Positions 2,473 through 36,925 of a stretch of 61,904 nt of DNA are shown here, piece by piece. A model generated the notes under the pieces. That model was not told the DNA's origin and did no database searches. It was given only the letters and a program-made list of their open reading frames with translations. Each line of letters starts with the position of its first letter. Within the stretch, counting starts at the first letter, position 1. The translations under genes were made by a program, and so were the position numbers. Source of the DNA: Clostridia bacterium. Its GTDB lineage: Bacteria; Bacillota; Peptococcia; DRI-13; SV3-B141. The DNA is taken from contig JAHDSB010000062.1 of NCBI GenBank assembly GCA_018433015.1, forward strand, positions 1 through 61,904. Reading direction: 5' to 3'.

Positions 2473-2516
2473 AAAAAGCCGTTTGCTTTATTGAGCGATA
2501 AAGCAAACGGCTTTTT
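2473..2516. terminator. Strong bidirectional terminator upstream of parA
   Basis: AAAAAGCCGTTTGCTTTA and its exact complement form an 18-bp perfect stem around an 8-base loop. T-runs lie on both strands, so it can stop transcription from either side. It insulates parAB from the flank and marks the approximate left edge of the ICE backbone. Confidence 0.85.
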
Positions 2517-2539
2517 TGCGTGAAAGGAGGAAATTAAAA

Positions 2540-3364
2540 GTGTCAAAAGTAATCGCCCTGGCAAATCAGAAAGGCGGCACGGGTAAAACTACGACAACTG
2601 TCAATTTGGGTATCGGACTTGCGGCACAGGGTAAAAAGGTATTGCTGGTGGACGCAGACGCACAGGGTAACCTGACGGACTCATTGGGCTTCCGTGAGCC
2701 GGATAATCTTCCCGTTTCGCTGGCTACAATCCTGACCAAAACCATGATGGAGGAGCCATATGAGCCTGATGAGGGAATACTTCACCATGCAGAAGGTATT
2801 GACCTTATGCCGGGGAACATTGAATTGTCAGCTATAGAGGTATCCCTCGTCAACACCATGAGCAGGGAAACGGTATTGTGCAGCTACATTAACACTGTTA
2901 AATCCAGCTATGACTATGTGTTGATAGATTGTATGCCATCTCTGGGCATGATGACTATCAACGCCCTTGCGTCTGCCGATAGTGTAATTATTCCCGTTCA
3001 GGCTCATTATCTGCCCGCTAAAGGAATGACACAGCTTTTGCAGACCATCACTAAGGTAAGGCGACAAATCAATCCCAAGTTGGCCATTGATGGCGTTTTG
3101 CTCACAATGATGGATAACCGTACTAACTTTGCAAAAGACATTTCCTTTGTACTGCGACGGGACTATGGCGACAAGCTACGGGTGTTTCAAACGGAAATCC
3201 CTCTGTCCATCCGGGCGGCAGAAACAAGCGCACAAGGCAAAAGTATCTATGCTTATGACCCTCACGGGATAGTTTCAAAAGCTTACAAATCCTTTACGAA
3301 GGAGGTGCAGGACATTGGCGAAAAGCAGCGTAAGAGACAGCATCAAGCTGACCTCAGTAGATGA
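2540..3364 (+). CDS. parA: ParA/Soj-family partition ATPase
   Basis: The 274-residue ParA/MinD-type P-loop ATPase probably drives segregation or maintenance of the excised circular form, acting on the nucleoid with ParB. A deviant Walker A motif (KGGTGKTT) lies near residue 12, and the switch regions VDADAQGN and VLIDCMPSLG follow. I chose the GTG start at 2540 because AAAGGAGG sits nine bases before it and the protein then begins SKVIALANQKGG, as expected for the family. The longer frame from 2516 would begin inside the terminator. Its 3' end overlaps parB by 50 bases, so the two are translationally linked. The call is secure; the role in ICE stability is inferred. Confidence 0.95.
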   Translation: MSKVIALANQKGGTGKTTTTVNLGIGLAAQGKKVLLVDADAQGNLTDSLGFREPDNLPVSLATILTKTMMEEPYEPDEGILHHAEGIDLMPGNIELSAIEVSLVNTMSRETVLCSYINTVKSSYDYVLIDCMPSLGMMTINALASADSVIIPVQAHYLPAKGMTQLLQTITKVRRQINPKLAIDGVLLTMMDNRTNFAKDISFVLRRDYGDKLRVFQTEIPLSIRAAETSAQGKSIYAYDPHGIVSKAYKSFTKEVQDIGEKQRKRQHQADLSR

Positions 3365-4259
3365 TCTGTTTTCCACTGAGGAAAGCCGTGTTGAACAGCA
3401 GCGTGAAAAGGTGCTGGATATTCCCTTATCGGAAATCAGTGATTTTCCTAATCATCCGTTTAAGGTGAAAGCTGATGAAGCAATGCTTGAAATGGCGGAC
3501 AGCGTAAAGCAATACGGTGTTTTAGTTCCAGGACTTGTGCGACCTAAAGCTGGCGGCGGCTATGAAATGGTTGCCGGGCACCGACGTAAAAAGGCAAGTG
3601 AGCTTGCGGGCAAAGAAAATATGCCTTGCATTGTTCGCGAACTTGACGACGACCAAGCTACTATTATTATGGTTGACAGCAATTTGCAAAGGGAAAGCAT
3701 TTTACCCAGTGAAAAAGCCTTTGCATATAAGATGAAGCTGGAAGCTATGAAGCGGCAGGCAGGAAGACCAAGTAAAGAAAATTCTACCCAAGTTGGGCAG
3801 GATTTAAGGGGAAAGTATTCTGTTGAGATTTTAGGTGAGCAAGTTGGTGAAAGTAGAAATCAAATTCAGCGTTACATCCGCTTAACTGAACTTATACCAC
3901 CCATTCTTGAAATGGTTGACGAAAAACGAATTGCCTTTAATCCTGCTGTGGAGATTTCCTACTTAGCCGAAAATGAACAGCAAGACCTATACAACACCAT
4001 GCAGTCGGAGGATTGCACTCCATCTTTGGCACAGGCACAGCGCATGAAGAAGCTCAGTCAGGACGGCAGGCTGAACATAGATGTCATTTTCTCCATTCTT
4101 ACAGAGGAAAAGCCAAATCAAAAGGAAAAATTCAATATCCAGAGGGAACGCATTGACCGATTTTTCCCTAAGAACTTTTCGGAAAAGCAGAAGGAGGACT
4201 TGATTGTTCAGCTGCTTGAAAACTGGTTCAAAAAGCGGCAGCGGGAACAGGAACGATGA
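3315..4259 (+). CDS. parB: ParB/Spo0J-family partition protein
   Basis: The 314-residue ParB has the N-terminal CTP-binding ParB/Srx fold, with GHRRKKASEL near residue 90 followed by the MVDSNLQRE segment. A central helix-turn-helix region around residues 165-190 would contact a centromere. The TTG start has GGAGGT eight bases upstream and lies inside the end of parA. A terminator follows at 4284-4313, making parAB a self-contained unit. The centromere is not known. No classical parS (TGTTTCACGTGAAACA) was seen, but a repeated TTCGGYTGGTAA element lies 0.4-0.6 kb downstream. N-terminal features and length fit the family well. Confidence 0.93.
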   Translation: MAKSSVRDSIKLTSVDDLFSTEESRVEQQREKVLDIPLSEISDFPNHPFKVKADEAMLEMADSVKQYGVLVPGLVRPKAGGGYEMVAGHRRKKASELAGKENMPCIVRELDDDQATIIMVDSNLQRESILPSEKAFAYKMKLEAMKRQAGRPSKENSTQVGQDLRGKYSVEILGEQVGESRNQIQRYIRLTELIPPILEMVDEKRIAFNPAVEISYLAENEQQDLYNTMQSEDCTPSLAQAQRMKKLSQDGRLNIDVIFSILTEEKPNQKEKFNIQRERIDRFFPKNFSEKQKEDLIVQLLENWFKKRQREQER

Positions 4260-4893: not shown

Positions 4894-5604
4894 TTGAAGC
4901 TACTGAAAAACCGGATATTTCTAAGTGTCCTATGCCTTTTGATTGCGGCAGTCGTTTCTTTTGTGCTTCTACCGCGTTTTTACGAGAACAAAAGTACAAC
5001 GGTCATGGTGCTGCGGGCATCGGAGGACATCCCGGCGGGAACAGAGATACAGGATAAACATATTGCTTCTGTGGAGGTAGGAAGCTTTGGAATGCCTGAG
5101 GGGGTTATCAAAGATAAGACCATGATTGTGGGAAAAGTTGCACAGACCGCTATCTCCAAAGGGGACTATTTCTTTCCACAAAAGTTAGGTGAAACTATTG
5201 CCAGCGAATTGCTTGACCGGATTGTAAAAAATAATCAACGCCTTGTTACCGTGAGTGTACCGAGTATTGCCGCAGGGCTTTCCTCCCACCTGAAAAGCGG
5301 TGATATGGTAACGGTAGCTGTGTTTATGGAGAAAGCAACAGGCGGTCAGGAAGCTTCTCCACAGGTTATTATTTATCCGGAACTGAAAGGGCTGGAGGTT
5401 TACAGCGTGGAGAATGCCCGAACACAGGATACCGCAGAGGTTCGGGAGCAGCAGTTAAACAGCCAGTCATCCACCGGTGACCCCGTTCCCAAGGCTATAA
5501 CCTTAATTGCCACTGAAGCCCAGGCTGAAAAGCTCATTGAAGCTGAATATACCGGCAAGCTGCACCTTATTTTTGAGAAACGAGGTGTAAGCCATGAGCA
5601 GTAA
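4894..5604 (+). CDS. CpaB/RcpC-like SAF-domain pilus assembly protein
   Basis: The 236-residue protein has one N-terminal membrane anchor (about residues 7-27). A SAF domain follows (about residues 38-105), with the typical ASEDIPAGTEI opening and the KGDYFF segment. It is the CpaB/RcpC component of Tad (type IVc) pili. In Gram-negatives this acts near the secretin; here, without an outer membrane, it is presumably an extracytoplasmic assembly or wall-associated factor. The TTG start has AAAGGAGG eleven bases upstream. It overlaps the next gene by 11 bases and is the first gene of the pilus operon. Confidence 0.85.
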   Translation: MKLLKNRIFLSVLCLLIAAVVSFVLLPRFYENKSTTVMVLRASEDIPAGTEIQDKHIASVEVGSFGMPEGVIKDKTMIVGKVAQTAISKGDYFFPQKLGETIASELLDRIVKNNQRLVTVSVPSIAAGLSSHLKSGDMVTVAVFMEKATGGQEASPQVIIYPELKGLEVYSVENARTQDTAEVREQQLNSQSSTGDPVPKAITLIATEAQAEKLIEAEYTGKLHLIFEKRGVSHEQ

Positions 5605-6331
5605 AATCTATACTGTTTGGGGAGGCAGCAACAGCGGCAAAACCACCTTTGCAGCTAACCTGGCCTGCGCTCTTTCCAAGCGTGAAGTGCTGGTGGGACT
5701 TATTTCCTCCAATCTCACCTATGGGGATATGCAGGTTCTTTTCGGTCAAAGCGTCCCCACAGAAAAGGGTTTGTTTCAGGCTTTGAATGAGGATAATCCA
5801 AACATCGGAGAAAAATTCGTGGAGTATGAGGAAAGCAAAAATCTGTTTTTTCTGTCTGTTCCCACTTGCTATTCCGGCCTGCTTTGTGACACCGTGACTT
5901 TGCAAAGTGTGGAACGGATGATTAACTCTGCAGCTTTAGTATTTGACATACTCCTTGTGGATGGAGCTTCTGAAATCAATAACCCGGTATCAGGTGTGGG
6001 CTTGTGGCTGGCAGACGAGATTTTTACCCTGCACAGACCATCCATATCAGCACAAATGTGGTATCGGGGCGTTGCGGATTTTATGCGGGAGCTGCATATA
6101 GCCGAAAAGCAAATTCATGTATTGCAAGCTCCCACTGGTGAATTTGATAATAAGACCTATCAAAGCATGATGGAACTGTCTTTTGCCTATGAGCTGCCCT
6201 ACGTCAAACGGGCAGGTGAACTGGAAAACGCCGGAACACCCCTGTATTTCTTCCATGATCGACCTTGCAGACGCTACGGCAAGGTGCTGGAGGAAATTGC
6301 AAAGAGAATGTGCGGAGGTGGGAAGCCATGA
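5594..6331 (+). CDS. TadZ/CpaE-like MinD-family ATPase
   Basis: The 245-residue P-loop protein carries a Walker A-like GGSNSGKTT at residues 10-18 and a Walker B-like ILLVDGASEI segment. It resembles CpaE/TadZ, the ParA/MinD relatives that position Tad pilus machinery at the cytoplasmic membrane. It lacks the N-terminal receiver-like domain of longer CpaE proteins. It overlaps both neighbours (start inside the CpaB-like gene, end overlapping cpaF by ATGA), which supports co-translation. A second ParA-type protein (parA, 2540) on the same element has a different Walker A sequence and neighbourhood, so the two are not simple duplicates. Confidence 0.8.
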   Translation: MSSKIYTVWGGSNSGKTTFAANLACALSKREVLVGLISSNLTYGDMQVLFGQSVPTEKGLFQALNEDNPNIGEKFVEYEESKNLFFLSVPTCYSGLLCDTVTLQSVERMINSAALVFDILLVDGASEINNPVSGVGLWLADEIFTLHRPSISAQMWYRGVADFMRELHIAEKQIHVLQAPTGEFDNKTYQSMMELSFAYELPYVKRAGELENAGTPLYFFHDRPCRRYGKVLEEIAKRMCGGGKP

Positions 6332-7716
6332 GCAACAGATTTTCAGTCAACGACCTTATTTACAGGGCTAACAAGAGGCGATCAGACAGCGGAGAAAATA
6401 TAAAAGCCCAGGACTATGGAGAAATCCTTGACAAGTTGCAACGTATTATTGCAAAGAACCATTCGGCAGAACTGGCCCAGGTATTGTATTCCGAGGAAGC
6501 CGAGGGAAAGCTCAAGGACCTTATTATGCGCTACTTAAACAGTGAGCAGCTGGTAGCAAAAGATATCCGGAACATTTCCGAGCTTGTGGATGCGGTGTAT
6601 TACGACATGGCGGGTATGGGGCTGCTATCTCCATATCTTCAGGACAGTGATGTAGAGGAAATCAACGTCAATGGATTTAGTGGTATCTGGGTACTGTACA
6701 AGGACAGAAAGGTGCGGCTTACAGAAACCTTTGGAAATCCGGAAGCCTGCGCCAACATCGTCCGGAAGATGAGCCGGTTCGGGAACGTTATCCTGGATGG
6801 TTCCAAACCTATCGGTGACAGTTATATTTCAAAAGGTGTTCGTATGTCGGGAGCCATTGAACCTTGCGTCGATTCAGATGCCGGAGCCATTGCTTCCATA
6901 AGAAAGCAAAAGCCATCGTATATTACACGTGAAAACCTCATCGGGTGGGATACAGCCACAGCAGAAGAACTTGATTTTCTCACCCTTTGCGTCAACAACG
7001 GTGTATCGGTAGCCATTGCCGGAGCCACCGGCAGCGGAAAAACTGCTGACATGGGATATATTCTAAGCTGTGTATCCGCAGATAAACGTATCGTAACCAT
7101 TGAAGATACCCGCGAATTGACGTTGGCACAGTTTGATGAAAACGGCGTAATGACTAACGATGTCATTCATCTTTTGACCAAAGAGGAACCCAATCCCGTA
7201 ACCATGCTGGATTTACTGAAGCTGTCATTAAGACTGCATCCTCAAATCCTTGTTCCTGCAGAAATGCGTGGCAAAGAAGCCCTCACAGTGCAGGAAGCAG
7301 GAAGAACGGGACACACCATCGTCAGTACCCTCCATGCAAACAGTGCGAGGACGGCCTATGAAAGAATACTGACTATGTGCCTGGAGGCTGGAACGTTCTT
7401 GTCAGAGGAAAGGCTTTTGAAAAACATAGTAGAAGCCTTCCCTATTATGCTGTTTAAGATGCAATTGCCAGATAAGTCAAGAAAGTACATGGAAGTCTTT
7501 GAAGCCACCGGAGTAAAGAATGGTGAAGTCATAGGCAGCACTCTTTTTAAATATGTGGTTGACCATTATGAGCGGGATAGCACCGGGAGGATTATAAAGG
7601 TTGTGGGAGGCCATAAGCGTTTGGGCTGCATTTCCACAGCACTTGCTGAAAAGCTGCTGGTTGGCGGTGTGCCGCAAAAGGAGATTCGCCGCTTTTCGGA
7701 AGGAGGAACTGCATGA
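6328..7716 (+). CDS. cpaF: CpaF/TadA-type secretion ATPase
   Basis: The 462-residue ATPase powers pilus assembly. Visible features are the N-terminal all-helical region, a Walker A GATGSGKT at residues 232-239, an Asp-box/Walker B region around EMRG (E312), and the His-box STLHAN near residue 335. These define the CpaF/TadA branch of the GspE superfamily. The start at 6328 overlaps the previous stop and has GGAGGTGGG upstream. The stop overlaps tadB as ATGA. Walker B reads PAEMRG where many relatives have VGEIRG. The catalytic glutamate is retained, so I expect an active enzyme. Confidence 0.93.
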   Translation: MSNRFSVNDLIYRANKRRSDSGENIKAQDYGEILDKLQRIIAKNHSAELAQVLYSEEAEGKLKDLIMRYLNSEQLVAKDIRNISELVDAVYYDMAGMGLLSPYLQDSDVEEINVNGFSGIWVLYKDRKVRLTETFGNPEACANIVRKMSRFGNVILDGSKPIGDSYISKGVRMSGAIEPCVDSDAGAIASIRKQKPSYITRENLIGWDTATAEELDFLTLCVNNGVSVAIAGATGSGKTADMGYILSCVSADKRIVTIEDTRELTLAQFDENGVMTNDVIHLLTKEEPNPVTMLDLLKLSLRLHPQILVPAEMRGKEALTVQEAGRTGHTIVSTLHANSARTAYERILTMCLEAGTFLSEERLLKNIVEAFPIMLFKMQLPDKSRKYMEVFEATGVKNGEVIGSTLFKYVVDHYERDSTGRIIKVVGGHKRLGCISTALAEKLLVGGVPQKEIRRFSEGGTA

Positions 7717-8627
7717 ATTCAATTTACCTATTCTTAGTTCTTGTTTTCCTGCTCATCAGCCTTGCACTATTTTTATTGTTAAAATTGGACCCATTGAAAG
7801 TGGAGCAGAACCCATTGAAAAAGCGCCGTTTGTACCTGACAGGGACGAAACTTAAAATCACCGAGAGAATTTCAATCCGGTTTCAAACTCTGTTTAGACA
7901 AACCCGATGCACAAGGAAAAAATTTCTTGTAATGGTGCTGGTATCGGCATTAGGCGGCTTTATGGCCGGGATACTGTTATTTGGAAGTGCGGAGCTGGCT
8001 TCAGTGATGGCGATATGCGTTATTCCCGCACCGTACTTTTATCTGACAGTGAAAAGCTCTGGAGCGGCCCGGGAGGAAATTGAAGGACTGGAAAACACCA
8101 TGTCCATTATCACCAATGCCTATGCCGGAAATGACGACATCATTAAAGCAGTGGAGCTTTATGTGGAGGAAAAGAACCGGTATATTCCGGTTCACTTAAG
8201 GACGCCAACGCCTTTTGACGAGTTTATCTCAGAAATCAGGCTCATAAATCCCAATGTTGAACATGGACTATACCGCTTGGAAGCTAAAATCAAAAACCGG
8301 TATTTTGCCGAATGGGTGAAAACCCTTATCCTTTGTCACCATGACCGGAGACTGAAATTCGCTTTGTTTCCCATCATCAAAGCAATGAATGACGCGAAAT
8401 CCATGCAGATTGAAAGTGATGGCATGATGGTCAGGGTATGGCGGGACTATCTTATGACGGCAGGACTGATGTTTTCCATCATCCCCATGATGCGTTTTTC
8501 CAACGCTGAATGGTTTTCCATTCTCACCAAAACCACTATCGGAAAGCTGCTGATCGTCCTGATGCTTGTAACCGCACTTGCCACCGCCTTTTATGTAATG
8601 AAAGCTACAAAACCATCAAACAGATAA
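7713..8627 (+). CDS. tadB: TadB-like inner-membrane platform protein
   Basis: This 304-residue membrane protein has an N-terminal transmembrane helix (about residues 3-24), a central hydrophobic pair around residues 70-115, a cytoplasmic helical stretch and two C-terminal transmembrane helices. That layout matches the T2SSF/TadB family, which forms the membrane platform contacted by CpaF. Sequence conservation is low, as is usual for TadB. The identification leans on length, topology and its place between cpaF and tadC. It is translationally coupled to cpaF by ATGA. Confidence 0.82.
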   Translation: MNSIYLFLVLVFLLISLALFLLLKLDPLKVEQNPLKKRRLYLTGTKLKITERISIRFQTLFRQTRCTRKKFLVMVLVSALGGFMAGILLFGSAELASVMAICVIPAPYFYLTVKSSGAAREEIEGLENTMSIITNAYAGNDDIIKAVELYVEEKNRYIPVHLRTPTPFDEFISEIRLINPNVEHGLYRLEAKIKNRYFAEWVKTLILCHHDRRLKFALFPIIKAMNDAKSMQIESDGMMVRVWRDYLMTAGLMFSIIPMMRFSNAEWFSILTKTTIGKLLIVLMLVTALATAFYVMKATKPSNR

Positions 8628-8639
8628 GGAGGCTTTACG

Positions 8640-9545
8640 TTGTTTTATCAAATCATTGTGTTTGTCCTGCTGACTGCGGCAGGATTTTTAATTTGCAGAC
8701 AACTGCTTAAAATTCCAAAGCTCAGTATGAAAAAGAATATCAAAAACCTGAAAACAGAAAAAGAGGAACCGGGCAAGTGGCTCTTAAACCGAGTTGTTAT
8801 GCCCTTAGTAAAGCCCTTTGCACGGCTTATCAGGCTTGACCCGGCAAAGGAAGCTAAAATGGCATCCATGCTGCGGCGCGGAGGGCTGGAGATGACTCCA
8901 AAGGAGTATTATGCCAGGGCTATTCTGTGTGCTCTTTTTACTGTGCCGCCTGCCTTACTGATGTTTGCCATAGGCGCGGCTAACATCGCACCCATTGTCC
9001 TTATATTTTCCGTAGTGGTATATTTCCACTTCACAACCGACCTTAAAGACAAGATGAAGGAAAAAAAGAACCGAATTGAAATGGAGCTTCCCGGCTTTGT
9101 TCGTTCCATCCTATATAAGCTGGACGATATTAAGGGCGGCAGCAACAGGGTAATAGTACAGGTGGACTTAATTCAGATATTTGAGGATTATCTAAAGGTT
9201 GCAAGTGAAGTATTCCGTTATGATGTTTCAGTTCTGGTGATGGAAATGAAAGCAAAGGATATTGAAACCGCCCTGCGAAACTTCAATGAGCGCATTGGGC
9301 TTACAGATGTGTCATTTTTAGTGAACGCCCTTATCGGATTGTACCGAGGCGAGCATCAAGGAGAGGCGCTGGCCTATCTTGCAAGAGATATGGACATCAA
9401 GGCCAAGGAAGCTTTAAAGAAAAAGTTAAATAAGCTGCCCCGCAGGATTAAGATTGCGTCCATCCCTTTGGTGGCCGTAACCCTTGCCAGCCTGCTTTAT
9501 GTCATAGGCTCCCATCTCATTAAATCAATGGGGGGCCTTTTTTAA
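8640..9545 (+). CDS. tadC: TadC-like inner-membrane platform protein
   Basis: The 301-residue protein pairs with TadB as the second platform subunit. It has an N-terminal hydrophobic helix, a central pair of transmembrane helices (about residues 95-135) and a C-terminal helix, with the basic loop KLNKLPRRIKIASI before it as in T2SSF proteins. The TTG start is preceded by AAGGAGG at 8627-8633. It ends just before the pilin cluster. The assignment rests on topology and order. Confidence 0.82.
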   Translation: MFYQIIVFVLLTAAGFLICRQLLKIPKLSMKKNIKNLKTEKEEPGKWLLNRVVMPLVKPFARLIRLDPAKEAKMASMLRRGGLEMTPKEYYARAILCALFTVPPALLMFAIGAANIAPIVLIFSVVVYFHFTTDLKDKMKEKKNRIEMELPGFVRSILYKLDDIKGGSNRVIVQVDLIQIFEDYLKVASEVFRYDVSVLVMEMKAKDIETALRNFNERIGLTDVSFLVNALIGLYRGEHQGEALAYLARDMDIKAKEALKKKLNKLPRRIKIASIPLVAVTLASLLYVIGSHLIKSMGGLF

Positions 9546-9650
9546 TGTGAAAACGGGGGAACCCTTTTCAAAATAAATTTTTAGGAGGTAAGACTCATGT
9601 ACATCAGCAAAACCACAGCCCCAATTACAAAGGAAAGGAGGACACATTCC

Positions 9651-9848
9651 ATGAAAAAGAGGATTACAAACGCTCTTTTGAATGCCAGAAATGTGCTGGC
9701 TAATCCATCCGGAGATCAGATGACTGGCTGGCTTATAGTTGTATTGGTTGTAGTAGTTGTTGGCGCAGTGTTCATGACACTGTATCAAGACTCCATCACA
9801 ACTATTTGGAACAGCATTGTTACCAAAATCACCGGCCTTTTGAGCTAA
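9651..9848 (+). CDS. Flp/Tad-type pilin, copy 1
   Basis: A 65-residue pilin has a basic leader, then SGDQMTGWL and a Val-rich membrane stretch, ending SIVTKITGLLS. The C-terminal 46 residues are almost identical in all four copies. I chose ATG 9651 (GGAAAGGAGG upstream), which aligns the leader with copies 2-4. An alternative ATG at 9597 with its own AGGAGGT would add 18 residues. Canonical Flp pilins have Glu5-Tyr6 after the cleavage Gly; these do not, so cleavage after the G of SGD is an inference. Confidence 0.85.
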   Translation: MKKRITNALLNARNVLANPSGDQMTGWLIVVLVVVVVGAVFMTLYQDSITTIWNSIVTKITGLLS

Positions 9849-9872
9849 TCACAGTCAAAGGTTAGCAGCACG

Positions 9873-9891
9873 GGGGAAGTATGGCTTCCCC
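9873..9891 (+). repeat. Interpilin hairpin 1
   Basis: GGGGAAG-TATGG-CTTCCCC is a perfect 7-bp stem in the 85-base spacer after pilin 1. The same hairpin recurs after pilins 2 and 3. The trailing sequence is CT-rich and not a clean T-run, so mRNA stabilisation, processing or partial attenuation are all possible. Confidence 0.7.
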
Positions 9892-9933
9892 TTTCCTTTA
9901 AACCAAAATCTAAAATAAACGGAGGTATTTGTT

Positions 9934-10143
9934 ATGATAGCTACATTAAAAAACAAAATGCAGAGCCTGGGCCTGGAAGCTAGAAGAGTTATGGCTAATC
10001 AGTCGGGAGATCAGATGACCGGATGGCTTATCGTGGTATTAATTGTCGTTGTGGTAGGCGCAGTGTTTATGACACTGTATCAGGACTCTATCACTACCAT
10101 CTGGAATAGCATCGTTACGAAAATTACCGGTCTTTTGAGTTAA
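9934..10143 (+). CDS. Flp/Tad-type pilin, copy 2
   Basis: The 69-residue pilin has a leader MIATLKNKM followed by a helix-rich basic region, then SGDQMTGW and the Val-rich segment. It differs from copy 1 mainly before the SGD motif. An AACGGAGGT ribosome binding site and the same spacer architecture precede it. It is likely processed by the A24 peptidase encoded at 14898 and polymerised by the CpaF-TadBC machine. Confidence 0.85.
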   Translation: MIATLKNKMQSLGLEARRVMANQSGDQMTGWLIVVLIVVVVGAVFMTLYQDSITTIWNSIVTKITGLLS

Positions 10144-10174
10144 GAGAACTGAACCCCACAGGTAAAGACACATA

Positions 10175-10193
10175 GGGGAAGCATGGCTTCCCC
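10175..10193 (+). repeat. Interpilin hairpin 2
   Basis: The same 7-bp GGGGAAG/CTTCCCC stem lies in the spacer after pilin 2. Loop and flanks differ slightly, so the stem has been maintained while the surroundings drifted. Confidence 0.7.
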
Positions 10194-10238
10194 TATTCCC
10201 TTAAAACCAAAAATAAAAAATAAACGGAGGTATTTGCT

Positions 10239-10448
10239 ATGATAACTACTTTAAAAAATAAAATGAGAATGGCGGCTTTGAAAGCCAGAAACATACTGGC
10301 TAATCCATGCGGAGATCAGATGACCGGTTGGCTTATTGTGGTGCTGGTTGTTGTAGTTGTGGGTGCTGTATTTATGACACTGTATAAAGGTTCTATCACC
10401 ACCATTTGGAACAGCATTGTTACCAAGATCACTGGTCTTTTAAGCTAA
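10239..10448 (+). CDS. Flp/Tad-type pilin, copy 3
   Basis: The 69-residue pilin has a leader MITTLKNKMRM, then CGDQMTGW (Cys in place of the Ser found in the other copies) and the shared Val-rich core. LYKGS replaces LYQDS of copies 1 and 2 near the C-terminus. An AACGGAGGT ribosome binding site precedes it. The extra cysteine just before the presumed cleavage site is the most notable difference. Expression of several variants could give a mixed fibre. Confidence 0.85.
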   Translation: MITTLKNKMRMAALKARNILANPCGDQMTGWLIVVLVVVVVGAVFMTLYKGSITTIWNSIVTKITGLLS

Positions 10449-10472
10449 TCATAGTCAAGCGGCAGTAGTACA

Positions 10473-10491
10473 GGGGAAGCATGACTTCCCC
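10473..10491 (+). repeat. Interpilin hairpin 3
   Basis: This is the third copy of the GGGGAAG/CTTCCCC stem, with loop CATGA, between pilins 3 and 4. Confidence 0.7.
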
Positions 10492-10537
10492 TTTCCCTTT
10501 GAAATCAAAATCTAAAAAATAAATGGAGGTATTTGTA

Positions 10538-10747
10538 ATGATAACTACTTTGAAAAACAAAATGAGAATGGCGGCTGTAAGGGGCAGGAACGTACTATCA
10601 AACCAGTCTGGCGACCAGATGACAGGCTGGCTCATCGTGGTACTTATTGTCGTAGTGGTAGGTGCTGTGTTTATGACGCTGTACCAGGGTTCTATCACAA
10701 CCATTTGGAACAGCATTGTTACCAAAATCACCGGCTTACTTAGCTAA
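10538..10747 (+). CDS. Flp/Tad-type pilin, copy 4
   Basis: The 69-residue pilin begins MITTLKNKMRMAA like copy 3, carries SGDQMTGW and the Val-rich core, and ends as the others do with LYQGS. I chose ATG 10538, which follows GGAGGT at 10525-10530; an upstream in-frame codon at 10523 lies in the ribosome binding site. It is followed almost directly by the TadE-like gene, without the usual interpilin spacer. Confidence 0.85.
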   Translation: MITTLKNKMRMAAVRGRNVLSNQSGDQMTGWLIVVLIVVVVGAVFMTLYQGSITTIWNSIVTKITGLLS

Positions 10748-10794
10748 TGAAAGCCGAAAAAGACATATCCCAAGACGCGGGAGGTGCAAAACGC

Positions 10795-11277
10795 ATGAAC
10801 AGCAGGCACCGGGGCATAGGGGGGAGATTTCCTCCCCCCTTGTCTTTTGAAAAGCTTCTTTTCAGCAGGAAAGGCAGCAGCTATTTTGACCTGATGATTA
10901 AAACACTGGTGGTAATTACGCTTATGGTTACAGTCATGAGTTTTCTAAGTATCTTTACCACCTATCTGAATCTAAACCATGTCTGCCGGCGAGTTGTCCG
11001 GGTAGTTGAGTTGGAGGGAGAAGTATCGGATAAAGCATACGACGTTTTCTACCGCCTCAAACAGCAGACCGGCCTATCGCCGGAAATGACCATCGAGGAT
11101 GTGGAATATTGCGAGGACCAGAAAATACAGTTGAGGGACACTTTTATGGTCACGATGGTATACAGCTACCCTTTTACCATATTTATGCCGTCCTTTGCAC
11201 CGCCTGTTCAAATCAATATACCCATGAAAGTCAGTATTACCGGCATGTCGGAAAAATATTGGAAGCTCTCTGAGTGA
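10795..11277 (+). CDS. TadE-like pseudopilin
   Basis: The 160-residue protein has RKGSSYFDLMI followed by a hydrophobic helix, resembling TadE/DUF4320-type minor pseudopilins that are also prepilin-peptidase substrates. I prefer ATG 10795, with GGGAGGT nine bases upstream, over ATG 10747, which overlaps the pilin stop and lacks a ribosome binding site. A strong GC-rich stem at 10819-10839 lies within the first codons, where the interpilin hairpin would be expected. The Gly before SSYF aligns with the Gly before DQMT in the pilins. Confidence 0.75.
   Translation: MNSRHRGIGGRFPPPLSFEKLLFSRKGSSYFDLMIKTLVVITLMVTVMSFLSIFTTYLNLNHVCRRVVRVVELEGEVSDKAYDVFYRLKQQTGLSPEMTIEDVEYCEDQKIQLRDTFMVTMVYSYPFTIFMPSFAPPVQINIPMKVSITGMSEKYWKLSE
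10819..10839 (+). promoter_or_regulatory. GC-rich hairpin at the start of the TadE-like gene
   Basis: GGGGGGAG and CTCCCCCC pair around a 5-base loop within the first ten or so codons of the 10795 gene. It could slow ribosomes or set the ratio of pilin to minor pseudopilin. It occupies the position of the interpilin hairpins. Confidence 0.5.
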
Positions 11278-11300
11278 GAGTACCGGAAAGGAGAAAAGCT

Positions 11301-11783
11301 GTGGGCAAATTAAAGCATATTTTAAACAACCGAAAAGGCGATGCCTTTATATTTATCCTGATCCTTGTCTTTTTCATCCTGACCCTTTCGGCTATCCTGA
11401 TTGAATATTTTCGCATGGAAAGCTTGTATCAGCAGGTGGAATATGTCCTCCAGAGAGGTGTAAACAGTTCCGTAGAAAATGCCATGCTGGATGAATACCG
11501 CAGGGACGGCAATGCCAGGATGGACAGCGCACTTGCGAAAGACACTATCTATACCTATTTTCACGAAAACATGGAGCTGGATACAGCACTTAACAAATAT
11601 GCCGGTGAACAGTGGGTTTATCAGCTTGAAATCAAGGGCATTGACGCAACCGATGATCCACCCCGGCTGACGCTGGACGGAGCGCTAAAAACCCGCAGCA
11701 TTTTCAGTTTTTTAACAGGGGATGTGCGGCTCCCCTTTAGCATCTCCAGCGTCAACAATAGAATTGAGGAAGGAGGTTCTTAA
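11301..11783 (+). CDS. TadE/TadF-like pseudopilin
   Basis: The 160-residue protein has NNRKGDAFIFILILVF near its N-terminus, again a KG before a long hydrophobic helix, followed by an extracytoplasmic region. It fits a second minor pseudopilin (TadF-like). The GTG start at 11301 follows AAAGGAG by seven bases; an earlier in-frame start at 11274 overlaps the previous gene and has a poorer site. The stop overlaps the ATG of the large secreted protein. The family assignment rests on context plus the KG-hydrophobic signature. Confidence 0.7.
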   Translation: MGKLKHILNNRKGDAFIFILILVFFILTLSAILIEYFRMESLYQQVEYVLQRGVNSSVENAMLDEYRRDGNARMDSALAKDTIYTYFHENMELDTALNKYAGEQWVYQLEIKGIDATDDPPRLTLDGALKTRSIFSFLTGDVRLPFSISSVNNRIEEGGS

Positions 11784-14700
11784 TGAAAGGAAAATTCATC
11801 TTTAACGTTCCGCTTGTAATTTTGTGCTGTCTATTCTTTTCCGTTAAGGCATTTGCCGCATCAAATAGTGACATTGAAATTACGGTTACATCTCCTATAG
11901 ACAGCCTGCAAAGCGAAAACGGCATGGTAGCAGTGGAGCAGTTTCCGGCAGAAATTCCTATCCGTATTACGGCTAATACTGGAGTGCTTACAGAAATCCA
12001 ACTGGAATATGGCGGCCAAAGCAAGGAGATAACGCCGGAATATATGCTTACCATAGAGGATAAGGAGGCTTGCGGCCCCTACACTATCACGGCTAAAACA
12101 GATCAGGGAGCTGTCCTTACCATCACAGCCAACGTCATATTTCAAGTAAAAGCCATCTATGATACCAGATACCGCACTATAGGCATGAACGTTAAGGAAA
12201 TTTATGAGGGCGAAAGGCTGCTAAAGTCTTTTCAGGAACCTGAGCGCATCGACCTTGTGAATGCTAATACCGTTGACGACCATGAACAGGAAAGAATCGC
12301 CGCATGGATAGGCAAATATGACGGCGGCACTTATACACTAAAAGGCAGCAATGTGGTAGAGATTTACGGTTTTTCTTCCGGAAAGCTCTATGGAACCTAT
12401 GATACTGACACGGATTTTGAGCCGTTAACCACCCGTTACGGATGGACGAAAAAGGCACTCATTGCCTTTGAAACCATGCGTTACACAGAAATTACCTATC
12501 AGGCTCCAGTTAAAATTGATGTGGATGCTACCTGGTGCGATGAGAGCAAGCAGAAGATTTATGGAAAGCTCACTGCTCAGGACAAAGGAGTGCCAAAGCT
12601 GCTCTATCCCTATCAGACAACATCAGTTACCTTTACCAAGGATGATATACAGCTGTCCCGAAACTTCATCTATTGCGGCCTTGAATGGGATTACACTCCG
12701 GAAAGTGCCGAATACGCTGATGGAGAAAGCAAAAGTAAGACCAGTATCACGCAGAAAATCAATTATAAAATTCCGGTGACAGATTTTTATTTCAAATTCA
12801 AAGCACAGGATGGAAATGACCTGTCGGTTGCCATCCGCGCCCCAGCCACTGTTAACCAGGGTGATAGCTACACCTTTACCGTAATTTATATGAACAGCGG
12901 AAAGAGTCCGGCCTATGACGTACCCTTAAAAGGTACGGTGGATGACAATATAATAGAAGAAATACCTGATAAACAGGATTTTCCGGCTAATATAAGCAAG
13001 ACATACACTATCAAACGCACAGCTGATACCAAAGCAGATGAAATCCACCTGTGGGCCAACATTGGTGTGCCGGAGGGCTTTATTGACGGAAATCTCAGCA
13101 ACAATACGGCTGCAGTGGTCATTAAGGTGATTGACCCTGAATCAGAGCCAACGCCTGACCCCGGTGATAACCCCGACAAGCCGGATACCCCTGATGAACC
13201 AAATAGTCCTGACAATCCGGATAATCCTCCCGACAAGCCACCCGCCCTGCCGGAACAATGCGACCTGTCGGCAAGCATACTTGCACCGCCTACGGTTTAT
13301 GAGCATGAGAATTACAGTTTTACCGTGAGCTTTACTAACAATTCCGATATGGAACTAAAAGCTGTGCCCCTACAGGGGAAAAGTAATGAAAATACCCTGC
13401 TGCAAATTCCGAAAGCGGCCAATTTTAAACCCCAGGAAACCAAATCCTTTACCATCACCGGTACAGCAGGAAGTGCCGGCGAGGTTTACCGCCTGTGGGG
13501 TAATGTAGAAGCACCAAAGGGATTTACGGATGAAAGCCCCATCAACAATACTGCCCTTTCAAGTATTACGGTGGTGAAACAGCCCATAGACAATCCAGAT
13601 AATCCTGACAATCCTGATGAGCCAGATAACCCTGACGAACCAGATGATCCGAATGAACCGGATAATCCATCCCAAAATGCGTGTGACCTATGGGTAAACC
13701 TGTCGTCTCCACCAACGGTTTACGAAAAGGAGGAATACAGTTTTACCATATATTTTGCCAACTCCACCGACAGAGCGCTGTCAGAAGTGACATTGAATGC
13801 TTCCATCGACGGAAAGGCAGTTTCATCAGTACCTTCTACGGCAAATTTCAAAGCCTATGAAACCAAGACTTACGTCATCAAAAGTACAGCGGGCGAAAAA
13901 GGTGCAGCCATTCATTTAGCAGCTCATGTATCTCCGCCTGAAGGGTGTGAAGATACCAACACCAGCAACAATCAGGCGACGGCGGAAATCATGGTTGCAG
14001 AGCGTCCCTATGACCTGGATGTGCAGAGGATAACACCCGACCGGTATAAAGAAAATCAGACTGTTATCAGTACCATCAAGATATCCAACAAAGGCAGTCT
14101 GGATTTTACGCCGGGACAAAAGGTATCCGTACTGTTTAAAATCCCGGAGCTTTCGCTGCAAAAACGTGTGGATGCCGTGGTTATGGTACAGGATACCTGG
14201 AACATTGTATCGGTCAAATGGGATACTCCCAATGTCCAAGCTGATAAAAATATCACCTTGATTGCTACCATCAATCCCGATAGGGTTTTGGACAATGAAA
14301 CCACCAATGCCAACAATACCTATACTCAAAGAGCCGTTATTCAAAATGTAGACTATGAAAAACCGGAGGAAAGCCGGGTACTGCCCGACCCGCCGAAAAG
14401 AAATGAACAGCCCAGGGTAACATGGTGGGAACAGCGGTACGAAAACGACCAATTTGTATGGAGGCAGTTTTACGCCGAGTTAAAGGTAAAAGCTATACTG
14501 GACTATGACACAAAGGCAAAGGACTACCTTAAATCCGGCTATGGTTATTCTATCAGAGTTACTACGACAATAAGCACCAACTACGACAGGCCGGAGATGA
14601 TTACCGCCCCTCAGACGGCGGAAGTCTATTTGCCTGAATACCGCTATGAAACCGCTATTCCTTTAATCAAGGAGGGCGGTCAATTTACATTTAGGGAAAA

Positions 14701-14896
14701 TCCCGCGTCCCCTTTCCGGTACAAAAAGCAATACATCCCGGTGTGGTTCCCGGATAACAGGGAGTATATTATGCAGCTTCTTGTTACGGATGTCCATACG
14801 CCAGGTGGAACCTTATCCCGTTGGATTACCGGAGGGGAACTTAAAATTCATGTAGTAGACAGCATGTATTCCGATGATGTCACCACAGGAAATTAA
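11783..14896 (+). CDS. Large secreted CARDB-like repeat protein of the pilus locus
   Basis: The 1037-residue protein has a clear Sec signal peptide (MKGKF start, hydrophobic core, cleavage after AFA near residue 25). After an N-terminal domain of about 300 residues come at least three repeats of a CARDB-like beta-sandwich (around residues 345-450, 495-600 and 635-745). Each contains an xAPPTVyexexYSFTV-type strand and a NNTAxxxIxV end. They are separated by Asp/Pro-rich linkers near residues 455-490 and 602-632. No LPXTG motif or C-terminal membrane anchor is visible. Lying inside the Tad operon, it is a candidate pilus-tip adhesin or mating-contact protein; this role is inferred. Confidence 0.8.
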   Translation: MKGKFIFNVPLVILCCLFFSVKAFAASNSDIEITVTSPIDSLQSENGMVAVEQFPAEIPIRITANTGVLTEIQLEYGGQSKEITPEYMLTIEDKEACGPYTITAKTDQGAVLTITANVIFQVKAIYDTRYRTIGMNVKEIYEGERLLKSFQEPERIDLVNANTVDDHEQERIAAWIGKYDGGTYTLKGSNVVEIYGFSSGKLYGTYDTDTDFEPLTTRYGWTKKALIAFETMRYTEITYQAPVKIDVDATWCDESKQKIYGKLTAQDKGVPKLLYPYQTTSVTFTKDDIQLSRNFIYCGLEWDYTPESAEYADGESKSKTSITQKINYKIPVTDFYFKFKAQDGNDLSVAIRAPATVNQGDSYTFTVIYMNSGKSPAYDVPLKGTVDDNIIEEIPDKQDFPANISKTYTIKRTADTKADEIHLWANIGVPEGFIDGNLSNNTAAVVIKVIDPESEPTPDPGDNPDKPDTPDEPNSPDNPDNPPDKPPALPEQCDLSASILAPPTVYEHENYSFTVSFTNNSDMELKAVPLQGKSNENTLLQIPKAANFKPQETKSFTITGTAGSAGEVYRLWGNVEAPKGFTDESPINNTALSSITVVKQPIDNPDNPDNPDEPDNPDEPDDPNEPDNPSQNACDLWVNLSSPPTVYEKEEYSFTIYFANSTDRALSEVTLNASIDGKAVSSVPSTANFKAYETKTYVIKSTAGEKGAAIHLAAHVSPPEGCEDTNTSNNQATAEIMVAERPYDLDVQRITPDRYKENQTVISTIKISNKGSLDFTPGQKVSVLFKIPELSLQKRVDAVVMVQDTWNIVSVKWDTPNVQADKNITLIATINPDRVLDNETTNANNTYTQRAVIQNVDYEKPEESRVLPDPPKRNEQPRVTWWEQRYENDQFVWRQFYAELKVKAILDYDTKAKDYLKSGYGYSIRVTTTISTNYDRPEMITAPQTAEVYLPEYRYETAIPLIKEGGQFTFRENPASPFRYKKQYIPVWFPDNREYIMQLLVTDVHTPGGTLSRWITGGELKIHVVDSMYSDDVTTGN

Positions 14897-14897
14897 T

Positions 14898-15299
14898 ATG
14901 CTGCTGTTTTGTGCCGTCCCGCTCTTGTGGGCGGCTATCACTGATTTTAGAAAGCGGATCATACCTGACTGGACGTGGATTGTAATTATTCTAATTGGAA
15001 GTGTATCCGCTTTTCTTTTTCTATACCCGACCCTGGCTCAGCGGATTGCGGGATTTCTGCTGCCGGGCATCTGCCTGTTTATTCTTGCCATAAAATACGG
15101 CGGTGTGGGTGGGGGCGACATAAAGCTGACAGCAGCGATGGGCTTTTGTTTCGGTCTGAATGCCCTTGCATTCATCCTCTTTTTTGCCCTGTTTCCTGCC
15201 TGCATCTATGCAAGAGCAACGCGGCAAAGAAGTGTTCCTCTGGCCGTATTTTTATGCATCGGCTTTTTTGTATATGCCGGTGCTTTATATATAGTTTGA
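14898..15299 (+). CDS. A24-family prepilin peptidase
   Basis: The 133-residue polytopic aspartic peptidase should cleave the leaders of the four pilins and the TadE/F-like proteins. Both catalytic aspartates are visible: TDFRKRIIPD near the N-terminus and the GxGD motif GGGDIKL in the middle. The small size, without the N-methylase domain, is typical of TadV/CpaA enzymes. ATG 14898 (ACAGGA upstream) avoids overlap with the previous gene; ATG 14874 is an in-frame alternative. Its presence makes the locus self-sufficient for processing. Confidence 0.88.
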   Translation: MLLFCAVPLLWAAITDFRKRIIPDWTWIVIILIGSVSAFLFLYPTLAQRIAGFLLPGICLFILAIKYGGVGGGDIKLTAAMGFCFGLNALAFILFFALFPACIYARATRQRSVPLAVFLCIGFFVYAGALYIV

Positions 15300-15335
15300 T
15301 TGACCTGTTGGATTAGATAGAAGGAGGTATTATTC

Positions 15336-15425
15336 ATGGAACTGAAAGCAATTTTAGCTGTCATGCTGTGCCTGGTGATTGCAGGCGGCGCAGTATATCT
15401 GCATATTAAAAGAAAAAAGAAATAA
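15336..15425 (+). CDS. Small single-pass membrane peptide
   Basis: A 29-residue peptide starts at ATG 15336 with AAGGAGGT upstream. It is one hydrophobic helix followed by a basic tail (HIKRKKK). It lies just after the prepilin peptidase and before a terminator, so it is the last gene of the pilus transcript. It is too short for family assignment. The strong ribosome binding site and clean helix-plus-basic-tail form support coding. Confidence 0.5.
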   Translation: MELKAILAVMLCLVIAGGAVYLHIKRKKK

Positions 15426-16789: not shown

Positions 16790-19700
16790 TTGGCAACAAA
16801 ACTGCAACTGATTACAGAGCTTTCGGAAAGGACGACCCGAGCTGTCGTAAAAAATACTGACAACTGGACTGCCTTTTTGAAAACGGCGGCATGGAACTAC
16901 AAGTATCCTTTTCAAGATCAGCTTTTAATCTATGCACAGCGCCCCGACGCCACGGCATGTGCCTCTATTGAGATATGGAATCAGAAGCTGGGCAGATGGA
17001 TAAATAGGGGTGCAAAGGGCATAGCTCTTATCGACGACAGTGGAAGCAGACTTACCCTGCGCCATGTATTTGATGTGTCTGATACCAACAGCCGCCAGAA
17101 CCGACCCATTATCCTTTGGGCTATGCGGGATAGATATGCTGAAGCTGTGACGGAAACACTGGAAAATACCTTTGGAGAACTGGATAAAAAAAGTGATATG
17201 CCAGCTGCCCTTATATCCGCAGCATATAACGCTGTGGAGGATAACTTTTCTGACTATCTCTCCGATCTGATGTACTTTAGAGAAAACAGCTTTCTGGAGG
17301 AACTGGATGATTTAAATGTGGAGATCATCTTCAAGAATACTCTCAAAAACTCCGTTGCTTACATGGCCTTAGTCCGCTCTGGCTATCCTGCTGACCAATA
17401 TCTGCCCTTAGAAGATTTTCAGGGTATTGTCAATTTTAATACGCTGGATACCATATCCCGTTTAGGAGCTGCCACCAGCGATATTTCTGAAATGCTCCTG
17501 CAGGAAATCGGCGCGACAGTCAAGGAACTTCAAATTGCAGAGAAAAAACAAAACCGTACCTTTGCAAAAAATCAGGATGTGGGTCAAAATGAAAGCATAA
17601 AGCAAAACAATAATCCTGAAAGGAATGATGAATATGGAACTGACTTACACGCAGCAAGGCGATTATCTGATGCCCGACCTGACACTACCGAGGGAAGAAG
17701 TGAACATCGGCAAGTATGGGATGTTGCGCAAAACATACCTGAAAAACCACAAGAAAGGAATGTACGCCAGCCTGATGCTGTCGGGCAAGCTTACAGAGCA
17801 CCTGTCGGAGATAGACCAGACGGCGAAAGAGAGAATCGAGAGAATTACGGAGAAACTCTTGACAGAGAACCCAGCACCGGACAAAGCGACCGACCCGATG
17901 GGTTGGACGGGACACATGAACAGTCTGAAACATCAGGCGGAGGAAACAGTGCTGACGGAGCTGATTTACAATTAACTTGGTATGACAGAAGAACGGAGGA
18001 TAAAAGTCTTCCGTTTTTTCATTTCACGCCTCTTATCAATGAAATCCTGCGCTCAACACCGCATCTCAAAGTCACAAAACAGGAGATTGCAGATTTTTAT
18101 GCTGTCCATGAAGATAGCAGTGAGCGTACCGAGTACATTAAAAGCATTTTTAATAATGACTATACAGAATTGATTATAAACGGAGATCATCGCGTCGGGT
18201 ACAAGACCTATCAAAATGTCCTCCACCTTTGGGAGGGCAGCTACACTGCAAGAACATCGCAGAGCTATTATGATTGGGGTGTTATTGCCGGACATATTGG
18301 CAGCATGATACTGCTAAACGAATTTCTTGATAAGCCGTCGGTATTGCCATCAATGCAGCAGCAAATAGCATTAATTGAGCAGGCAGAGAATGATAAATCC
18401 TCTGCTTTTTCTATTTCACAGGAAGTTATTGATGCAGTTTTACAACAAGGAAGCGGAGTGCAGGATGGTAAGTATAGGATTTATCTGCACTATCAAAACA
18501 AAACTTCTGCGAAAGAGAATACCGACTTTCTGAAAGATGAATATGGAATGGGCGGCCGGGCACCTGCTTTAACTGGCACGGATATTCACGAATGGCATGA
18601 CAGCAAGGGTATCACCCTCACCAGCAGAAAAATCATGGGGCCGGATAAAAAGATTGTTTTGCCCTGGACAAAGGTGCAAAAGCGCATCTGGGAGCTGATC
18701 GAAGCCGACCGATACTTAAACAGAAAAGAAAAAGAGCACCTGCCTGCTTATGAAAAGGAACAGGAGGAACGCCGCCAGAAGCTTGCCGAAGAAGCCTATG
18801 TCCGTGAAATCCTAAATCATCAACCGGCTCCATCTGAACCGGAGCCACCGTCACGGGAAAATGCGCATTATGCCTTTTCTCTTGGCGACACCATTTATCT
18901 TGGTGCGGATGAATACGAGATTTTATCCTATGACAACAGCACAGTTTATCTACGTGATGTACAATTCCCACTGTTCAGCAAGGAGCTTGCACGAAGTGAT
19001 TTTGACCGGATGCTGCGGGAAAATCCCTTAAATGACCATCTCATTGCACTGGAACAACAAGCCGAAAAAGAAACAGAAACACCATCACCGCGTGGGCTGT
19101 ATCAGACATATTTGCCGGAAATGGTCAGCAGGGTACAAAACGATGAAGTCTATTCCTATCTACGGGAAAGGGATACCGACCCTGATAGCGCCAAACAGGA
19201 ATTGGATGGTGCACTTAACCGTATTATCCTTTCCATGAGGGAGGAACATGCAGCTTTTTATGAAGCATATACCACCCTCCCACAGTTTCGGGAATGGCTT
19301 CATGAGGATGTATTTCAAAGAACTTATCAGGACCATCTGACGGAAGAAAGAGATATGGCCACCATTCATGCCGATGATCCCGAAGCACCTGCATGGGTTC
19401 GGGAAAGCAGCGATGTTACCATTACCCGGGAGAAAGATGCTGGCACCATTGATAGCAGAGACGTGGGTGAAAAATCCTATGTGGAACTGCTGGATAATAA
19501 GGCTGATGAAACGGAAAAGAAACCAGCCGAAAAAGAAATATCTGTAGGTATGGAAATTACAATCGAGAACCGGCGTTATGTCATCGACGGGATTGACAAG
19601 AAAGCCGGAACCGTCAGCCTGCGGGATATTACCTTTCAAAATAGTGTGGGGTTCCCGATTTTCCGCAGTGAAAGCATTGAGTATATACGCAGCATTTTGG

Positions 19701-26083: not shown

Positions 26084-26116
26084 ATGATTAGAATATTACT
26101 ACAAGGAGTTGATACC

Positions 26117-33330: not shown

Positions 33331-33714
33331 ATGCTAAAAAGAAGCATTAAGATAACATTCCGATTGAACATACAAGAATGCCAGTTGTTAAAAAAACAGG
33401 TTAAGAAATCCGGACTTTCACAGGAAAGTTATCTGCGTACCCTCATTAACGGCTATGTACCCAAAGAACTTCCCCCTCCGGATTATTACACCATGATAAG
33501 GGAGCTTCACGCCATTGGTAGCAACCTAAACCAGATTGCAGCAAAGGCGAATGCAACAGGGCATATAGACCGGACAGCATTTCAGTATGAAGCTAACAGG
33601 CTTAGAAAGGCAGTGCTTGATATACAGGCGGCGGTTACGTCGCCGGAAAGGAGAAGTGAAGATGGCGACTACGGCAATATGGGATGTGAACGACCGCCTG
33701 GACCGGGTGATTGA
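33331..33714 (+). CDS. mobC: MobC-like relaxosome accessory protein
   Basis: The 127-residue protein has an N-terminal ribbon-helix-helix-like segment (KITFRLNIQECQLL, then SGLSQESYLRTLI) and the MobC signature region LHAIGSNLNQIAAKANATG. MobC proteins bind oriT and help the relaxase open the strands. AGGAGG precedes the ATG. The gene overlaps the relaxase gene by 53 bases, and its C-terminal tail, read in that overlap, is probably unstructured. Confidence 0.88.
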   Translation: MLKRSIKITFRLNIQECQLLKKQVKKSGLSQESYLRTLINGYVPKELPPPDYYTMIRELHAIGSNLNQIAAKANATGHIDRTAFQYEANRLRKAVLDIQAAVTSPERRSEDGDYGNMGCERPPGPGD

Positions 33715-36733: not shown

Positions 36734-36925
36734 ATGAAGGAAGAAGAAAGGGTTCTCACCCTGGATGATTATGAATATGGCGTTGTGGTGAATGCCTTAA
36801 ACGAGCTTAGAAATGACCTGATTAAAGAGGAACGGCCTACCGACGCCGTGGATGAACTGCTATTAAAAACCATTGACGCCCCGACTAAAAAACAGAAAAG
36901 AAGGAAAATGGATGAGGCGCGATAA
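36734..36925 (+). CDS. Small acidic ICE protein
   Basis: The 63-residue protein begins MKEEERVLTLDDYEYGVVVNALNELRN. ATG 36734 sits eight bases after GGAGG; ATG 36728 would be too close. It overlaps the start of virD4 by 14 bases. A protein with this DDYEYG opening is commonly found just before VirD4 in these elements. Its function is unknown. Confidence 0.6.
   Translation: MKEEERVLTLDDYEYGVVVNALNELRNDLIKEERPTDAVDELLLKTIDAPTKKQKRRKMDEAR

Follow-up and report, generated by a model that had tools for sequence, protein, structure and literature searches.

A Tad-like gene set as a putative mating-contact pilus of clostridial conjugative elements

Why would a conjugative element of a single-membrane bacterium carry its own genes for a Tad-type (type IVc) pilus? 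We addressed this question in a 61,904-nucleotide stretch of DNA from a Clostridia bacterium (assembly GCA_018433015.1, contig JAHDSB010000062.1; hereafter the window), which lies within one contig of a 3.75-Mb host genome. By gene content, an integrated conjugative element (ICE) spans ~2.4 kb to 55.5 kb of the window and contains a cluster of Tad-like genes. We argue that this cluster is probably a Tad-like (type IVc-like) assembly set of a single-membrane cell, and that it would provide clostridial conjugative elements with an exchangeable mating-contact pilus.

An intact Tad-like gene set with divergent pilins

The cluster occupies positions 4894-15299, all on the + strand, and its genes mostly overlap or are tightly spaced. 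Their order is the one given by the first-pass annotation, which had also placed the start correctly; its end, at 15425, moves back to 15299. The genes are as follows.

4894..5604, +, CpaB/RcpC: PF16976 (RcpC) 1e-17, SAF 3.6e-8, TIGR03177 pilus_cpaB 80.8 bits (cut-off 71)
5594..6331, +, TadZ-like ParA/MinD-type ATPase: MinD 2.9e-6, CbiA 2.4e-4, Walker A GGSNSGKT, and position
6328..7716, +, CpaF/TadA motor ATPase, 462 amino acids: PF00437 (T2SSE) 9.6e-27, Walker A and HANS box
7713..8627, +, TadB-like platform protein: hhalign E 1.4e-6 to TadB of a second Tad locus in the host's own genome
8640..9545, +, TadC-like platform protein: aligned by hhalign with the G000:C26 TadC (E 4.2e-8) and with classical TadC (2.5e-4)
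9597..9848, +, pilin 1, leader class 1, with a 44-amino-acid predicted mature part
9934..10143, +, pilin 2, predicted
10239..10448, +, pilin 3, predicted
10523..10747, +, pilin 4: PF19629 (DUF6133) 8.8e-4, below cut-off
10747..11277, +, TadE-like pseudopilin, DUF4320: PF14208 1.5e-35
11274..11783, +, TadF-like pseudopilin without a family, named from position and one N-terminal transmembrane segment
11783..14896, +, secreted protein, 1037 amino acids: CARDB 2.5e-8, DUF11 1.1e-5
14874..15299, +, A24 prepilin peptidase (TadV): PF01478 1e-16, with TDFRKR and GGGDIK motifs (both Asp motifs)

All reading frames of the cluster are intact in the window, and the gene order is conserved at loci in other genomes. 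Nine cluster genes compared between the window and locus L014 have ratios of nonsynonymous to synonymous substitution (dN/dS) of 0.05-0.14, and the cluster is under purifying selection. (L numbers are locus labels and G###:C## labels give genome and contig, G000 being the host genome.)

CpaB, CpaF, DUF4320 and A24 are named from curated models. For the motor ATPase, the best solved relative is Caulobacter CpaF (8rkd, 2.6e-36), with VirB11 far behind at 1.9e-14; we ruled out a VirB11-type ATPase of a type IV secretion system (T4SS), given this nearest relative and the adjoining TadB, TadC, CpaB and A24 genes. Translation of cpaF likely starts at ATG 6328, which overlaps the tadZ stop, rather than at TTG 6265. 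In-frame stops in relatives' cpaF had suggested recoding, an idea that we set aside: they appeared because the query, begun at the upstream TTG 6265, ran through the tadZ overlap. The TadZ-like protein matches MinD/CbiA-type ATPases only, and its name rests mainly on position. TadB and TadC are adjacent membrane proteins of ~300 amino acids without a direct Pfam match, and a PDB search with an AlphaFold model of TadC (pLDDT 69) returned nothing. Profile comparison supports their names: their alignments match each other at 9e-6, the host-genome TadB used as a bridge has a weak T2SSF match (7e-4), and 2 of the 18 members of the TadC alignment match T2SSF, at 0.016 at best. The TadF-like protein has 22 matches at 65-86% identity. 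A search of G000 for the classical TadE/TadF family, PF07811, returned nothing above its cut-off. A PHROGs search gave no useful match.

The pilins are unusual. All four genes predict a mature protein of 44 residues after a G/D cut; the leaders are long and fall into two classes. Compared pair by pair, the copies show 19-21 silently changed codons and only 1-3 amino-acid changes; with so few amino-acid and so many silent differences, the four pilins are best read as old copies kept alike by selection. In a scan of relatives restricted to frames with GDQ or GEQ, the core GDQMTGWLIVV is retained across the pilins of the loci listed. The +5 residue is Gly (G/DQMTGW) in the four window pilins and the listed relatives, whereas classical Flp pilins have Glu there, and it is variable in distant plasmid members. 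Pilin 4, the single window pilin scanned, does not match Flp1. The pilin of the host's own classical Tad locus differs, with a G/MGTVE site and a Flp1_like match of 1.3e-18, so that element and classical pilins are clearly distinct. That classical locus (L061, G000:C156), which adjoins a gene that we named ClpX-like by reading, is one of two further Tad-type loci in the host genome; the other is of the DUF4320 type (L063, G000:C26).

In the earlier description of a complete Tad locus, the name Tad thus fits the assembly machine, but the pilin and TadE/TadF side is divergent, and we speak instead of a complete Tad-like set. The absence of a secretin had been noted correctly: across 19 host genomes nothing scored above the secretin cut-off, and a single weak match in G031 was sub-threshold. 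This is no peculiarity, because single-membrane (monoderm) cells are expected to lack it.

The 1037-amino-acid secreted protein is predicted to have a signal-like N-terminus, an N-terminal part, three CARDB/Ig-like domains, linkers rich in Pro, Asp and Asn, and a C-terminal domain; we saw no LPxTG motif in it. A structure model is confident for the Ig-like domains alone (~amino acids 347-450, 493-598 and 634-739). Within the close family, mean pairwise identity is highest at residues 861-1037 (82%), intermediate in the Ig-like domains (65-77%) and lowest in the linkers (52-57%). The C-terminal domain is also common to proteins adjoining plasmid Tad sets (2e-11, 2e-13 and 8e-15), which differ in their N-terminal parts, and the secreted protein (1e-5) and CpaF (1e-60) of plasmid pCd5_2 match the same 6 of 72,556 plasmid records. 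The secreted protein thus appears to be a constant companion of the putative pilus machine, with an exchangeable outer part.

Association with conjugative elements of several kinds

Domain matches to a relaxase, a coupling protein, VirB4 and an integrase mark the surrounding DNA as an ICE. Its genes run in the order parA, parB, Tad set, SNF2-type, NikA-like and relaxase, VirD4, TrbC/VirB2-like, VirB6-like (named by position), VirB4 and large serine recombinase. These matches bear out the location that had been claimed for the Tad set, between parAB and the transfer genes.

2516..3364, +, ParA (partition/maintenance; left flank of the module): PF13614 3.2e-57
3315..4259, +, ParB: PF02195 1.8e-17
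16790..24604, +, 2604-amino-acid SNF2-helicase/methylase-type protein, named by reading, without family assignment
33331..35053, +, NikA-like accessory protein and MobA/VirD2-type relaxase: PF21983 1.8e-14, PF03432 3.4e-39
36873..38669, +, VirD4 coupling protein: PF02534 2.9e-60
43100..44845, +, VirB4 ATPase: PF19044 8.3e-20
53730..55445, +, large serine recombinase, likely the integrase, at the right end of the element: PF00239 2.7e-31, PF07508 2.4e-24

Close relatives of the module are attached to similar genes. A CpaF scan of species genomes found 27 loci. Identity over the best segment was 81-92% for 26 of them and 44% for the remaining one; the carriers are Geosporobacter, Acetivibrio, Petroclostridium, Desulfosporosinus, Lutispora, Syntrophomonas and others. 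Genes parAB lie upstream of the Tad set at 17 of the 27 loci, with SNF2 downstream at 15 of these 17; at the other two the contigs end. L020, counted apart from the 17, has parAB but its contig ends as well. Seven of the 17 parAB loci share a contig with a VirB4 gene 93-97% identical to the window's, at a distance of 28-36 kb from cpaF, and at five further loci (L015, L017, L018, L038 and L040) VirB4 or VirD4 lies no more than ~35 kb away on the contig. Element genes are therefore attached at 22 of the 27 close loci. VirB4 and CpaF searches covered 24 of the 27 (all except L018, L020 and L031, the first two lying in genomes that the searches covered) plus G010 and G001; the VirD4 search covered 14 loci.

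The association also holds at a larger scale. In a sample of 398 genomes of the phylum to which the window belongs, 54 loci in 40 genomes are marked by PF14208 (DUF4320). VirD4 lies within 50 kb on the same contig at 21 of 39 strong loci (22 of 54 overall) among the VirD4 matches listed, which comprise mostly up to three candidates per genome and leave out second fragments of one gene; 'strong' denotes an E-value cut of 2.2e-16, set after the table was seen, and the strong set includes the window's locus. Classical TadE, found in 200 of the 398 genomes, served as a control: none of 150 listed loci falls within 50 kb of VirD4, and 49 of the 150 sit in genomes with a listed VirD4. This control (at least 150 loci) was compared with VirD4 only, and has no counterpart to the additional VirB4 matches: of the 18 strong loci without a nearby VirD4, a search of the 15 genomes that hold them found 7 within 50 kb of VirB4. 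Surroundings were read for 7 of the 11 strong loci still remaining (all but G217, G169, G223 and G105). The locus in G172 is a window-type ICE, G013:C171 combines a relative of the secreted protein with a TrbL-like gene, and in G240 and G259 the contig breaks off.

The transfer genes themselves vary. A Geosporobacter ferrireducens ICE matches the window at 70-87% identity in its Tad proteins (CpaF 87%), and its backbone is less alike (parA 56%, SNF2 66%, VirD4 49%, VirB4 44%, relaxase 32%); G. subterraneus has both element kinds. More distant Tad sets, with CpaF at ~32-36% identity, adjoin transfer genes on plasmids of Clostridioides difficile, Terrisporobacter, another Clostridioides and an Oscillospiraceae isolate. 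The three plasmids whose transfer regions were read further have annotated relaxases of the MobP2 or MobP3 family. PLSDB types all six plasmids carrying the secreted protein (H41-H46) as non-mobilizable; its mobility typing seems to miss the MobP2/MobP3 families. The finding of similar Tad sets on differing backbones implies a module that passes from one transfer system to another and depends on no single one. Of the co-occurrence proposed for checking by the first-pass annotation, the link to conjugative elements is thus well supported, and the tie to one relaxase/VirB4 family gives way to several backbones.

Some elements carry two sets. In G049:C19 (Desulfosporosinus; L083-L086) a window-type Tad set is followed by a second, plasmid-type one and then, on one strand, by TrbL-like, VirB4-like and M23-like genes, a putative relaxase gene, toprim, and a VirD4-like gene. 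G259:C22 (L077-L078) has the same tandem start, with the second set cut by the contig end. Each set has a separate A24 peptidase (the second set of G259 being incomplete).

Two further groups of loci stand apart. On Desulfosporosinus islands L064 and L068-L070 (G048:C1 and G049:C15), a Tad set accompanies a helicase and several serine recombinases, with no T4SS seen; such islands are possibly a different kind of mobile element. A second element at L057-L058 (G037:C1, ~897-907 kb) has a second VirB4 copy, 94% identical, and only part of virD4; we found no Tad, parAB or SNF2 genes in the 80 kb examined, and a toprim fragment lies ~44 kb beyond nikA. Considered as a Tad-less natural control, it settles nothing, being a decayed relative with a partial virD4.

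A probable mating-contact pilus and its rivals

How might such a set serve an element? In the scheme that we propose, the A24 peptidase would cut the leader from the pilins, and CpaF would polymerise the 44-residue pilins on the TadB/TadC platform, with the TadE/TadF-like proteins and the 1037-amino-acid secreted protein as minor or tip components; a place for the latter at the tip is a guess. The resulting thin fibre, made by the donor, would bind other cells, and may thus bring donor and recipient together. Because CpaF powers both extension and retraction of Caulobacter Tad pili (PMC11300603; this and the other papers cited here are quoted from excerpts), we propose that the pilus would also retract, pulling bound cells close. 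The separate VirB4/VirD4 system would then pass DNA to the drawn-in recipient.

Several observations weigh against this scheme. In pilins that lack the Glu at +5 and a match to the Flp models, assembly of a long fibre is not assured. Association cannot tell mating contact from benefit to the host cell, and the element has a VirB2/TrbC-like gene of its own. Moreover, no T4SS gene was seen near four Desulfosporosinus loci (L027, L034, L035 and L036), the L034 contig being only 10.6 kb long and L035 and L036 adjoining a helicase and serine recombinases, with apparent chromosomal genes farther out. The DUF4320 loci of G141 and G063 are chromosomal, with the same chromosomal-looking neighbours in both genomes, the type also occurs at G000:C26, and a Tad locus in G345 has no T4SS in the 13 kb read. 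A cluster found mainly outside conjugative elements, the outcome that had been named in advance as fatal to the idea, is nevertheless not what the survey returned; the four Desulfosporosinus loci and chromosomal G141 and G063 are the exceptions.

These same loci without a T4SS lend themselves to another explanation, in which the pilus serves host adhesion or biofilm formation and rides on mobile elements by helping their carriers, not transfer. Many bacteria have Tad pili that act as adhesion fibres (PMC11300603), and Tad is the type IV filament type most often borne by plasmids (PMC6668835). Against host cargo of this kind stand the contrast in VirD4 proximity between classical TadE loci (0 of 150 listed) and strong DUF4320 loci (21 of 39), a module that lies among or adjoins transfer genes and swaps backbone as a unit, and the presence of two other Tad-type loci already in the host. 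We regard it as unlikely.

Slightly less likely still is a direct part in DNA passage, by which a short pseudopilus would cross the thick wall and form or clear a path for DNA, and would be needed in all conditions. Very short, near-invariant pilins (1-3 changes against 19-21 silent codons) suit a structural part better than a variable adhesin. Set against this are the element's own VirB4, VirD4 and TrbC/VirB2-like genes, together with a secreted Ig-like protein that points outward; related transfer systems also function without Tad genes. A contact-dependent secretion or killing apparatus, like Kil of Myxococcus, has a precedent in that Tad-type pili can serve killing (PMC12075869, PMC8460266), but we recognised no effector/immunity pair among the Tad genes and the secreted protein is Ig-like, which makes this account very improbable. 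That the cluster is a decaying, non-functional remnant is hardly credible, as its intact frames and low dN/dS against L014 contradict decay, although degraded relatives do exist (in G001 the match passes from inside tadB directly to SNF2 and toprim, and in G172 tadB is split).

We therefore return to the mating-contact pilus, and extend it more tentatively. It is possible, if somewhat short of probable, that clostridial elements with quite unlike relaxases and T4SSs have in common a dedicated, exchangeable Tad branch, marked by DUF4320, by minimal pilins lacking a fixed Glu at +5 and by a secreted protein whose conserved C-terminal domain is new. This branch, at times doubled in tandem, would be what monoderms have in place of the conjugative pilus, and would act as a functional component of the transfer apparatus. 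Should these be mating pili, the rule that Gram-positive bacteria have no conjugative pili would fail for many clostridial elements, including Clostridioides plasmids; donor-recipient contact in clostridia would become a question testable through cpaF; and the secreted protein would offer an anchor family for locating such elements.

The remaining element and known systems

Elsewhere in the window, homology to relatives starts at 2383-2449 in most cases. An 11-bp direct repeat at 2388-2398 and 55699-55709, near both presumed ends, could be the attachment core, or chance. A TrbC/VirB2-type pilin gene lies at 38614-38997 (PF04956 6.4e-7, above cut-off) in what is apparently a monoderm element; the excerpted 2025 review has VirB2 absent from Gram-positive T4SSs with one exception (PMC12857230). 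With this gene in addition to the Tad set, the element may encode filaments of two types. A DDE transposase gene (39328-40791; PF05598, PF13751) separates the VirB2-like gene from the VirB6-like one and may disturb the transfer operon in this copy of the element. A Phd/YefM-ParE toxin-antitoxin pair (26084-26702) opens a cargo region of low guanine-plus-cytosine content; further cargo ahead of the recombinase (47769-51040) comprises a MarR-GNAT fusion, a membrane protein and a D-aminoacyl-tRNA deacylase. Immediately past the recombinase, at 56066-61904, lies an apparent type I restriction-modification set, recognised by reading only.

Part of this picture is already known, namely Tad loci on plasmids and a Tad set on conjugation-like Cutibacterium acnes plasmids (PMC6668835, PMC5696575, both in excerpt). 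As far as the open-licence literature shows, the dedicated branch in clostridial elements, the backbone exchange, the tandem pairs, the pilin type and the secreted partner are new; we found no description there of Tad sets on clostridial ICEs or plasmids, which leaves their absence unproven.

Compared with the canonical Tad/Flp system (type IVc) of Caulobacter and Aggregatibacter, the window set shares CpaB/RcpC, a TadZ-like protein, a single CpaF, two putative platform proteins, TadE/TadF-like proteins and the A24 peptidase, all in one locus. It differs in having no secretin and no Glu at +5, in falling outside the Flp models, in the replacement of TadE by DUF4320, in its extra secreted CARDB protein and in its location on a conjugative element. 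The chromosomal DUF4320-type loci (G000:C26, G141:C9 and G063:C25) share DUF4320, CpaF, TadB, TadC and CpaB; unlike the window set, they have no match to the secreted protein, no T4SS seen nearby and, in two genomes, conserved chromosomal neighbours.

The tad locus of C. acnes is likewise borne by plasmids of a Gram-positive host, together with VirB4- and TcpC-like genes, and its authors, in the excerpted text, remark on the adjacent DNA-transfer functions and a possible link (PMC5696575). There, however, the host belongs to the Actinomycetota, the plasmid is of FtsK type, the pilin site reads G/SSTVET and the excerpted text reports no test of transfer (PMC5696575). Gram-positive transfer systems are said to use adhesins, without conjugative pili (PMC12857230, in excerpt). 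PrgB of pCF10, a Gram-positive cell-wall adhesin, shares the presumed job of bringing cells together; adhesins of its type are single LPxTG-anchored proteins without an assembly machine.

A functional parallel comes from IncI plasmids such as TP114 and its kin, with their type IVb pili, and from the pilus of PAPI-1, where a type IV filament also stands beside an unrelated T4SS and serves conjugation. Mating by TP114 gains stability from its pilus, both in broth and in the gut (PMC9045228), IncI type IV pili aid mating in liquid, and PAPI-1 requires its pilus (PMC12857230). Those systems belong to diderm hosts and to another class of type IV pilus, and TP114 has PilV shufflon adhesins, whereas the window set, where no shufflon was seen though none was specifically sought, is Tad-type and monoderm.

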